Source: Fibrobacterota bacterium (GTDB lineage: Bacteria; Fibrobacterota; Fibrobacteria; UBA11236). From it: 64,000 bases of DNA. Under the pieces are notes generated by a model. That model was not told the DNA's origin and did no database searches. It saw only the letters and a program-made list of their open reading frames with translations. Below are positions 33,890 to 39,901 of the stretch, piece by piece. The stretch spans positions 62,001 through 126,000 of the forward strand of contig CANKII010000004.1 in the NCBI GenBank assembly GCA_947482115.1, in the 5' to 3' direction. Each line of letters starts with the position of its first letter. Positions within the stretch are counted from its first letter, which is position 1. The translations under genes were made by a program, and so were the position numbers.

Positions 33890-33919
33890 TTGATCCTTTT
33901 CGGAGAAAAACCGTATAGT
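33890..33919 (+). promoter_or_regulatory. Sigma-70-like promoter before the protease-lipoprotein cassette
   Basis: TTGATC (33890-33895) and TATAGT (33914-33919) with an 18-bp spacer lie 36 bp before ATG 33955. A strong ribosome binding site, AAGGAGGA (33943-33950), follows. Gives the three-gene cassette its own promoter apart from the trp operon. Confidence 0.6.
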
Positions 33920-33954
33920 TTAAGAGTGGGATCATTCATTTCAAGGAGGATGCC

Positions 33955-34434
33955 ATGAACAAGCTCTTTTCATTTTCCTTCCGAACATCATTCCTGTCCG
34001 CATTATTACTGGTTTTTATCCTGAATTTACCCGGAAGGGCGGAACAACCCTCCGCCGTTTTACAGGAACGATTCAAAGCGTCGGTTAACACCATGGTTCA
34101 ACAAGTGCAGACAGCCCAAGATCCCGTCGCCAAGCGGGAGATTCTCGGAAATTTCCTGACGCGCATGGATCAAAGGTTGGGAATGGTCAGAGGCTTAATC
34201 CCGGAACAAGATAGGGCGGGACTTGACGTGATAAGGACGAAAGTCGAGTCGCAATACGCCGAGCTCAACGGTTTGAACGGAAAAGAGAAGGTGACGGATG
34301 CCGATTTGAACCCATTCGCCCGCTATATCCAGCAGGATATGGAGCAATCGGACGCCTATTGGACGGGAGGCGGCCTGTATATCAGCGCCGGCTTGCTCAT
34401 TTTCATTCTGGTTATCCTCCTTATCCTGCGGTGA
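33955..34434 (+). CDS. Small exported helical protein with C-terminal membrane anchor (paralogue A)
   Basis: 159 aa, no recognised family. Signal peptide (residues 1-29, LSALLLVFILNLPGRA), a helical charged middle (VLQERFKASVNTMVQQVQT, ILGNFLTRMDQRLGM) and one C-terminal TM helix (about 137-158, ISAGLLIFILVILLILR). Predicted to sit in the periplasm or envelope, anchored by its tail. It is closely related to the protein at 35655-36101 (shared ARYIQQDMEQ, DADLN, NFLxRMDxxxGM). The gene between them encodes a predicted cysteine protease lipoprotein. Confidence 0.65.
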   Translation: MNKLFSFSFRTSFLSALLLVFILNLPGRAEQPSAVLQERFKASVNTMVQQVQTAQDPVAKREILGNFLTRMDQRLGMVRGLIPEQDRAGLDVIRTKVESQYAELNGLNGKEKVTDADLNPFARYIQQDMEQSDAYWTGGGLYISAGLLIFILVILLILR

Positions 34435-34447
34435 GAACGGGGAACAC

Positions 34448-35557
34448 TTGCCATTTTCATTTCGAGGCTCCCTCGCCATCCCGGTTCTCGCCGGGATGGC
34501 GCTTTTGCTGGCAGCCTGCGCGGGTTCAAGACAGGAGCCCGACCAAACCCGTGATCAAACTTCCAAGTCCTCAGTTCCATCCGATTCCAACATCAACTTC
34601 CAACTGATTTACATCGTGCATGGAGATGCGGATTACAACTGGCATGATTCAACCGGACAACAACATCGTGCAGATGCGGAAGCGGTGGCGCAGGCTTTGG
34701 ACGTTGCCCGGAATTCCCCCCATTCCGAAGTTTTCATTTTTCATCAATCCCCGCGCCATGTGAAATGGTTCGGGAAAAATTTGGAAGGAATGTTCTACCA
34801 GTATCGCCATGGAATCCTCTTACACCAGGAACCTTATTCCCGCATGGATGACAGCGACTTCGAGGAGGAAGCCCGTTTGTTTCATCAGCATGTCCTATCC
34901 CCCGCCAACAGGGCGCCGACTCGGTTTTTCATTTACTTCGGTCATGAAATTCCCGTGCAGAACGGTGAAAATTATTCCCACTCCTATCCCGATAAAAACT
35001 TCTCCCAGGCCGACTTTGTGCGCGGGTTGGACCGCCTTGAACCGCCGCAATCCACCGCCGATGCCACCAAGTCTTTCGCGCTTGCGGTTCTTTCCACCTG
35101 CTATGGCGGAACACCGGGCATGTTAACCGCCATCGCCCCTTATGCACAATACGTGGTAGCATCTCCGGCCTATCTTCACCTTTCCTTTTTGGACACGCGT
35201 GCTTTCAAGGAATTGGACGGAGATTCCACCCCGTTGGATGCGGAAAAAGTTCATGCCCTCGCGGATTCGATGGCGGAACAATCGTTCGTATCGTTGCGGA
35301 AAAACACTCAGACGGAAATCACGGTGGGGGTGTACGACATGGACAGAAGTTCCGCGTTTCTTCATTCCTTTGCCGCCAAGGCGTGGAAAACAGCATCCCA
35401 TGGCTATCATGACTGTGCGGAAGATTACGGCTTCGACTCCGCATCGGCACGGGCCGGAGTGGATTTGTTTTATCAAACCCCGCGTTTCGGGGTCCTGAAA
35501 AACAAACAGAACCATTCCGGTTGGGAATGTCCCGGCCAAGAAACTGCGCAAAGGTAG
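34448..35557 (+). CDS. Predicted clan CD (clostripain/C11-like) cysteine peptidase lipoprotein
   Basis: 369 aa from TTG 34448 (GGGGA 6 nt upstream). Signal peptide with lipobox LLLAAC (Cys24). Strand-His and strand-Cys elements of caspase-fold peptidases are visible: FFIYFGHEIPV (His166) and ALAVLSTCYGGTPGML (Cys218), followed by APYAQYVVASPAYLHLSF, which resembles the YVVASE segment of clostripain relatives. An early FQLIYIVHGDADYNWHD strand fits the same fold. No activity can be asserted. The position between two paralogous anchored proteins suggests that they are partners, substrates or inhibitors. Confidence 0.6.
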   Translation: MPFSFRGSLAIPVLAGMALLLAACAGSRQEPDQTRDQTSKSSVPSDSNINFQLIYIVHGDADYNWHDSTGQQHRADAEAVAQALDVARNSPHSEVFIFHQSPRHVKWFGKNLEGMFYQYRHGILLHQEPYSRMDDSDFEEEARLFHQHVLSPANRAPTRFFIYFGHEIPVQNGENYSHSYPDKNFSQADFVRGLDRLEPPQSTADATKSFALAVLSTCYGGTPGMLTAIAPYAQYVVASPAYLHLSFLDTRAFKELDGDSTPLDAEKVHALADSMAEQSFVSLRKNTQTEITVGVYDMDRSSAFLHSFAAKAWKTASHGYHDCAEDYGFDSASARAGVDLFYQTPRFGVLKNKQNHSGWECPGQETAQR

Positions 35558-35586
35558 GTGTACACCCACCTCGTCACTCCCTGTAT

Positions 35587-35600
35587 ATTACGTAAGTAAT
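35587..35600. promoter_or_regulatory. ATTAC-GTAA-GTAAT palindrome upstream of paralogue B
   Basis: A perfect 5-bp inverted repeat with a 4-bp centre overlaps a TATATTA box (35584-35590), 55 bp before ATG 35655. It could be an operator over a promoter. No good -35 hexamer is seen. Confidence 0.3.
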
Positions 35601-35654
35601 GACGATGGACATCCTTGAAAATTCATTCGGGATGTGGATTGAGAGGAGCACAAC

Positions 35655-36101
35655 ATGAACAAGCTCACTTTGACATCGGCGAAAATCCTCGTGGCGGCCT
35701 TTGCAATTCTTGCGCCTTTGCGGGTGCATGCGGATGCGGGGTTTGTGCGGGAGCGGCTGAACGCCTCCATCAACCAGATCATTCAAAACGTCCGCGAAAC
35801 GGAAGATCCCGCCCTCAAACGACAAATGCTGGAGAACTTCCTGAACCGGATGGACCGCGGGATCGGAATGGCGGAACAGATCGGGTCTAAGGAGGAGGTC
35901 CGAAGCCTCGAAGCCATGCGAATCAAAGTCCAGGCCGACCGCACGGAATTGAACGGGTTGCAGGGCCGCGACAGGGTGGCCGATGCGGATTTGAACCGTT
36001 TTGCGAATTATATCCAGCAGGATATGGAACAGGCCAGCTATGTTTACATCGGCACAGGAACCTTGATCATCATCCTGTTGATTCTGCTCATCCTCTTATA
36101 A
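35655..36101 (+). CDS. Small exported helical protein with C-terminal membrane anchor (paralogue B)
   Basis: 148 aa, no recognised family. Signal peptide (KILVAAFAILAPLRVHA), helical body (VRERLNASINQIIQNVRET, MLENFLNRMDRGIGM, NGLQGRDRVADADLNRFANY) and a C-terminal TM helix (TLIIILLILLILL). Same architecture as paralogue A, with similar blocks in the same order, so the pair arose by duplication. GAGAGGA precedes the start. Confidence 0.65.
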   Translation: MNKLTLTSAKILVAAFAILAPLRVHADAGFVRERLNASINQIIQNVRETEDPALKRQMLENFLNRMDRGIGMAEQIGSKEEVRSLEAMRIKVQADRTELNGLQGRDRVADADLNRFANYIQQDMEQASYVYIGTGTLIIILLILLILL

Positions 36102-39111: not shown

Positions 39112-39141
39112 TTGACGGTCTCCGGTTTTGTGTCGTATACT
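39112..39141 (+). promoter_or_regulatory. Sigma-70-like promoter upstream of the orphan gene
   Basis: TTGACG (39112-39117), an 18-bp spacer and TATACT (39136-39141). The start codon is at 39293, giving a leader of about 145 nt with no recognised structure. Confidence 0.6.
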
Positions 39142-39292
39142 TTTGGACAGGAATCAAGCGCCCAGGTTGAGAGTGACCGAAACGCGAGGCAATAACAGTA
39201 ATAGCCTACAGCAAACCACCATTAAAGTTGCTGGCATGGTTGTCTTTAAACACTCTCGGCGACTACAAGTCCAGTCTTTAAGGAGGTTGCTC

Positions 39293-39901
39293 GTGAAACA
39301 TGACATCGCTAAACTCTCCGCAGATTCTCTGCGTTCCTATTTCATCGACAAGTATGGCATTAAGGTAAAGTCGGGACACGCCCATGAAATTGTAGCGGCG
39401 TTTTTCGGCTTTAAATCCCGTATCGCCATGCTTGCGGATAAAAATCAGATAGTCAACAATTGGGAGGCGGAATTCATCCTGCTTGATCCACCCATATACT
39501 TCATTCTCGATCCAACTATATCCTTAATAAACCAGCGCCTCCAAAATCTTCAAGATTTGTCGCCTGATTTACCACTAGGTCACGTGTTGGCCGAAGAAAT
39601 TTATGCCGTCTTAGTTGCTCAACTAAGCCAGTATCGGCGATTGAGAATATTCTTCAAATCAGGCCTTCCCTCCACAAAATGGGAAAGGGATGTGAATATA
39701 GAACACAAAGACGATGGCGTTTTATTGACCGTTGATGTGGGATATCGCACCGATGCAAAAGAACGCCTTAGGGACAGCAAATACGTCATCTATCTTCCAC
39801 GCATTGCCGCCAACTTAGGCTATAGCACACCAAGGATTGAGGAAACCCTTTTTTCGGGATGGGCGAGAAAATATAGCGACGAAGAATGGCTTAAGCTTTA
39901 A
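39293..39901 (+). CDS. Hypothetical protein, AT-rich orphan
   Basis: 202 aa from GTG 39293, chosen because AAGGAGG lies 6 nt upstream; the frame is open back to 39128 but has no ribosome binding site there. The N-terminal block KSGHAHEIVAAFFGFKSRIA resembles a short helical motif seen at the start of various uncharacterised proteins; no named family was recognised. Later parts have WERDVNIEHKDDGVLLTVDV and YVIYLPRIAANLGYSTPRIEE. Base composition is more AT-rich than the flanking rapA and leuA, and the gene has its own promoter and terminator, suggesting acquisition. Function unknown. Confidence 0.6.
   Translation: MKHDIAKLSADSLRSYFIDKYGIKVKSGHAHEIVAAFFGFKSRIAMLADKNQIVNNWEAEFILLDPPIYFILDPTISLINQRLQNLQDLSPDLPLGHVLAEEIYAVLVAQLSQYRRLRIFFKSGLPSTKWERDVNIEHKDDGVLLTVDVGYRTDAKERLRDSKYVIYLPRIAANLGYSTPRIEETLFSGWARKYSDEEWLKL

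Follow-up and report, generated by a model that had tools for sequence, protein, structure and literature searches.

Three plus-strand genes lie between a trp operon with a low-molecular-weight phosphatase gene on one side and a rapA-like helicase gene on the other in a 2.7-Mb Fibrobacterota genome, of which a stretch of 64,000 nucleotides (hereafter the window) was analysed. The middle gene, single-copy in this genome, encodes a predicted lipoprotein peptidase, and the outer two encode paralogous small proteins (42% identity over 142 aa, E 1e-36) that are the sole two copies of their family there. The genes and their features, in window coordinates, are listed below.

33932..33954, + strand: ribosome-binding region of small gene 1 (TTTCAAGGAGGATGCC), with a strong Shine-Dalgarno sequence; anti-SD duplex -11.4 kcal/mol
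33955..34434, + strand: small gene 1, 159 aa; signal peptide, four-helix domain and C-terminal membrane segment (predicted); the conserved partner upstream of the protease
34448..35557, + strand: protease lipoprotein gene, 369 aa; predicted C11-like clan CD caspase-fold cysteine peptidase; TTG start 14 bp past small gene 1
34517..34519, + strand: Cys24, lipobox cysteine (LLAAC), in 40/40 aligned homologues
34943..34945, + strand: His166, predicted catalytic His (YFGHE), in 40/40 aligned homologues
35099..35101, + strand: Cys218, predicted nucleophile (LSTC; LSTCYGG), in 40/40; aligned with Cys179 of P. merdae C11 (PDB 3uws/4yec; numbering: PMC4850288)
35655..36101, + strand: small gene 2, 148 aa; paralogous to small gene 1 and provided with a separate Shine-Dalgarno sequence; a downstream copy not found in relatives
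36018..36035, + strand: QDMEQA juxtamembrane motif of small protein 2 (Q122-A127), directly ahead of the linker and membrane segment

The positions of the three genes, the paralogy of the outer two and their common plan of signal peptide, helices and C-terminal membrane segment had been given in a preliminary description of this DNA, and all were borne out. The genes are genuine, since many homologues of each family occur in other genomes and since their third-codon-position G+C (0.58-0.72) resembles the value for the trp and rapA genes on either side (0.56-0.64). Further along the window, a 257-aa ORF without a Pfam match (39128-39901, +) lies between the rapA-like gene and a leuA-like gene.

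The same description had presented the middle protein as a clan CD protease-like lipoprotein, for which a caspase-like sheet would be expected in the predicted structure. An AlphaFold model of moderate quality built from 7 sequences (mean pLDDT 69.8, pTM 0.75) agrees with this proposal: the best Foldseek matches are the C11 proteases 6n9j, 6mzo and 6nag (E 6e-11 to 2e-9, prob 1.00), followed by caspases and the V. cholerae RTX cysteine protease domain. TM-scores to the C11 structures are modest (0.42-0.47), and the fold predicted by AlphaFold and recognised by Foldseek is the caspase-like alpha/beta fold of clan CD and C11. The lipobox and the paired His166 and Cys218 likewise hold as described; in the 40-sequence alignment, Cys24, His99, His166, Cys218, His244, Cys323, Trp359 and Cys361 are present without exception.

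Profile comparisons point to the same family. Pfam Peptidase_C11 matches 31 of the 40 members at E<=1 (best 2.2e-8), and among the matches listed two members score 28.1 and 29.2 bits, above the gathering cut-off of 25.8 bits; the window protein itself returned no Pfam Peptidase_C11 match. The family profile aligned weakly (E 0.08) with the P. merdae C11 (PmC11) structures 3uws/4yec, placing Cys218 on the Cys of the FDAC motif, which is Cys179 of PmC11 when counted from the Lys147 cleavage, and Cys179 is the catalytic Cys of that enzyme (PMC4850288). Profile alignment with a set of three C11-like proteins from this phylum, including a classical C11 protein, was stronger (hhalign E 5.6e-6) and covered the same strands, again with Cys218 in register. 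The register of the catalytic pair with C11 rests on profile alignment for the Cys and on inspection by eye for the His. Judged from model and alignments, the lipoprotein family is a divergent C11-like branch with a predicted caspase fold and a putative His/Cys dyad.

The branch departs from its relatives at the substrate pocket. Asp177 of PmC11, two residues before the catalytic Cys, is conserved throughout C11 and is the main S1 determinant (PMC4850288). The equivalent position is Ser216 in the window protein and Ser in 39 of the 40 family members, which leaves the S1 pocket without its acidic residue; because the Asp is replaced by Ser, clostripain-type specificity for Arg or Lys is not expected. 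In Fibrobacter-type genomes, C11-like lipoproteins at three loci (L083-L085) carry His/Asn (FHNC) before the Cys where Asp-Ala is usual; variation at the S1 Asp therefore extends to other C11 branches. With the characterized C11 peptidases (PmC11; iotapain, 6n9j and 6nag; P. distasonis C11, 6mzo), the lipoprotein shares an envelope or secreted location as well as the fold, the placement of His and Cys at the ends of successive core strands, and an ASP strand after the Cys helix; it differs from them in the S1 residue, in falling under the Pfam cut-off, and in having an obligate small partner gene. A further group of caspase-fold enzymes, the CHAT-domain proteases (TPR-CHAT/Csx29), has its Cys in an LSxC motif, as here. 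The window protein differs from these in being a lipoprotein with neither TPR nor CRISPR genes, and the CHAT model is absent among the Pfam families matched by the 40 protease members at E<=1.

The small protein is modelled with a mean pLDDT of 83.5 as a signal-peptide helix, four helices (28-48, 52-76, 79-100 and 110-126) and a C-terminal helix. Across 41 aligned members, K55, R56, L99, L113, F116 and Q126 are invariant, and an EQA motif (E125 in 38/41, Q126 in 41/41, A127 in 40/41) marks the end of helix 4, 3-11 residues ahead of the membrane segment. The tail that follows the linker is hydrophobic, its last 15 residues being charge-free in 36 of the 41 proteins. Pfam, NCBIfam and PADLOC gave the protein no name, only scattered weak matches typical of helical sequence, and a Foldseek search with the model found nothing at E<=0.001. 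A parallel in layout is the PA2779 family (NF033919), a small protein encoded beside a C39-like cysteine peptidase of the PA2778 family. The two families have in common a signal peptide, a C-terminal membrane segment and a cysteine peptidase next door, and differ in protease class. NF033919 gives weak matches, confined to the C-terminal tail, in 4 of the 41 members, the best at E 0.009; the window's small protein scores 13 bits there, against a cut-off of 40 bits that no relative reaches.

Homologues of the pair were sought in genome contigs, where a single-protein query found none and an alignment query succeeded. The 43 protease loci comprise 7 from Fibrobacterota and 36 from other phyla; with one at a contig end (L042) left out, 42 were testable, and in 41 of these a small gene lies immediately upstream on the same strand, at a gap of -25 to +77 bp. 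The pair spans Fibrobacterota, Ignavibacteriota, KSB1, Krumholzibacteriota, Balneolota, Rhodothermota and Bacteroidota. A dedicated, anchored small partner, as previously suggested, is thereby upheld; of the proposed three-gene cassette, the adjoining protease and small gene recur elsewhere, while a small gene downstream of the protease occurs in this genome alone among the loci collected. Conservation covers a unit of two genes and not of three. Genome G003 carries two small genes in tandem upstream of its protease gene and the other relatives carry one, and the tree of the small family leaves the correspondence between copies unsettled. At the lone testable locus without a small gene upstream (L044:1-1192), the protease is preceded by an OmpA-like gene and then by a short in-frame extension, hydrophobic in part (SPLLLIMVVVLVKYS).

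Presence and absence of the two families coincide closely. Of 168 Fibrobacterota genomes, both families are present in 7 and missing from 160. The remaining genome (G008), which has no protease gene, carries a truncated small gene (L028:7880-8287), a decaying remnant. A weak, partial C11-type match in genome G101 was excluded by length as a family protease. Outside Fibrobacterota, 12 genomes were examined, and all had a single copy of the small family apart from a Krumholzibacteriia genome with two copies, both next to a protease gene. In the trees of the protease and small families, members cluster mostly by phylum, and inheritance is vertical-looking, with a near-universal one pair per genome. 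Collections of plasmids, phages and viral contigs yielded no homologue at the sensitivity used, and a mobile or viral origin was rejected for want of matches there. In the open-access literature, we found no description of the protease/small-protein pair.

Neighbourhood comparison detected no further gene family recurring beside the pair across phyla. Genes near some Ignavibacteriota and KSB1 loci encode OmpA/Gly-zipper, DUF4398, M48 peptidase, PRC-barrel, YtxH and Band_7 proteins, and suggest, no more, an envelope or stress context; a stress role, one of several entertained in the preliminary description, is weakly hinted at by such neighbours in some phyla. At L053:11261-11836 (-) and in seven other Balneolaceae loci, the opposite strand carries a gene for a PycTM (Pycsar effector-type) protein about 250 bp downstream and a thioredoxin-like gene upstream; both are probably synteny within Balneolaceae.

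Translation signals differ between the two genes of the unit. In the window, small gene 1 has a strong Shine-Dalgarno sequence (AAGGAGG) and small gene 2 a good one, whereas that of the protease gene is weaker and accompanied by a TTG start. In all seven Fibrobacterota units, the small genes (ATG) have the better Shine-Dalgarno sequence than the adjoining protease gene, and most of the protease genes are called with a GTG or TTG start; start calls were mechanical (first-start rule), with one G003 small-gene start mis-set, and the asymmetry is suggestive only. The small protein is probably translated first and made in excess over the protease. The strong ribosome-binding site reported earlier is confirmed for gene 1 and not for the protease, and the promoter reported with it is not established, given a single sigma-70-like match (9/12) at 33890-33919 and a regional total of 4 matches against 1.8 +/- 1.7 expected by chance. 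Within the protease signal-peptide codons (34474-34501, +) lies a 12-bp perfect stem with 9 G-C pairs and a 4-nt loop, followed by CTTTT; such a terminator-like hairpin at the start of the gene could limit protease expression. Its folding z-score is -1.7 in the window, and it is not consistently strong in relatives; the idea of a conserved hairpin was dropped, since for all its strength in the window the structure does not stand out in relatives.

We propose that the two-gene unit may perform proteolysis in the envelope. The large gene would supply a lipid-anchored, periplasm-facing cysteine peptidase of C11/clostripain type, with a His166-Cys218 dyad and a non-acidic S1 pocket, and the small gene a dedicated four-helix-bundle partner, exported by its signal peptide and tethered in the inner membrane by its C-terminal segment. 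The small protein is probably what the protease either cuts or is held back by. The reading that we favour, tentatively and at somewhat less than an even chance, is that it would be the cognate substrate, present in excess, and that the peptidase, if active as predicted, would cut it at or near the helix-end motif QDxEQA, freeing the bundle from its anchor for a putative role in released form. This reading is favoured because the conserved motif sits at the end of a helix, few residues outside the membrane and within reach of a lipid-anchored periplasmic protease. Conservation singles out no one site, since K55-R56 in helix 2 is conserved as well as EQA. That dibasic pair was considered as the cleavage site, given that clostripains cut after Arg or Lys, and was dropped, the S1 Asp being absent and the site lying in a predicted helix.

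The main rival, which we consider rather unlikely, casts the small protein as a membrane-tethered inhibitor or gate that would occlude the active site and be displaced or degraded in response to an envelope signal. Restraint of this kind is expected where an active envelope protease needs it, and obligate pairing, earlier translation of the partner and its probable excess fit an inhibitor equally well. The decay of the sole protease-less small gene is also as expected of an inhibitor, and suggests that the small partner has no use of its own. However, no inhibitor fold was recognised in the Foldseek search of the small model (E<=0.001), and inhibitors of secreted proteases are often without a membrane anchor. 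Taken together, the probable excess of small protein, the two small genes to one protease, the strict pairing and the joint loss are easier to reconcile with a dedicated substrate or inhibitor than with a complex of fixed 1:1 stoichiometry. An alternative that we regard as unlikely has the small protein as an activator, or as a scaffold that would keep the lipoprotein at the inner membrane or bring other envelope substrates to it, in general envelope quality control. A four-helix bundle with an anchor is a plausible adaptor, and the envelope or stress-type genes near several Ignavibacteriota and KSB1 loci would suit such a function, but neighbours vary and no third gene recurs across phyla, and the two small genes per protease found here speak against a fixed complex. 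Both this genome and G003 have two small genes to a single protease, which, together with the stronger small-gene translation signals, is suggestive of a substrate as against an equal partner.

GPI8 and PorU are clan CD enzymes that cut a C-terminal signal and attach the protein elsewhere. By analogy, the small-protein tail could be a sorting signal and the lipoprotein a sortase- or transpeptidase-like enzyme that cuts it and attaches the bundle elsewhere, a scheme that we think quite improbable. The succession of signal peptide, domain, short linker and charge-free hydrophobic C-terminus is what such a client would have and, as in sortase, exosortase and GPI8-type sorting, a dedicated cysteine enzyme is present; here, unlike in those systems, the enzyme is C11-like and no second tail-bearing family was found in the genome. 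A 39-aa tail query of the host genome retrieved the two small proteins alone, which would limit the enzyme to one or two clients at most and gives no support to a sortase-like system with many; no transfer partner is known, and ordinary C-terminal anchoring accounts for the tail. A defence or programmed-death module, in which a triggered protease would release or activate a membrane-damaging small protein, had also been raised at the outset, and a caspase fold beside a membrane-associated partner does recall the logic of protease-gasdermin pairs. The findings give it no support: PADLOC gave no match for the window protein and one weak match (1.7e-4) of a family member to an unnamed candidate profile, no plasmid, phage or viral-contig homologue was found at the sensitivity used, the trees follow phylum with one pair per genome, and the location is the envelope and not the cytoplasm. 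We accordingly hold this last reading to be very improbable.

On sequence and model, what is new here is a predicted lipoprotein branch of the C11-like peptidases with an obligate, unnamed partner. C11 proteases are, to our knowledge, mostly secreted and specific for Arg or Lys, and we know of none with a dedicated partner; the C11-like branch described here is lipid-anchored, has an altered S1 pocket and is accompanied by a single small membrane protein across at least seven phyla. It is possible, if doubtful, that the two form an obligate caspase-fold protease-substrate pair of the diderm envelope across Fibrobacterota and Bacteroidota-related phyla, in which an enzyme of new specificity would free, or re-attach, a tethered four-helix protein and so act as a switch in envelope signalling or sorting. 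The pairing points experimenters to the protein that probably serves a bacterial caspase-fold protease as natural substrate or regulator, and with cultured hosts such as Fodinibius and Balneola the question is directly testable.
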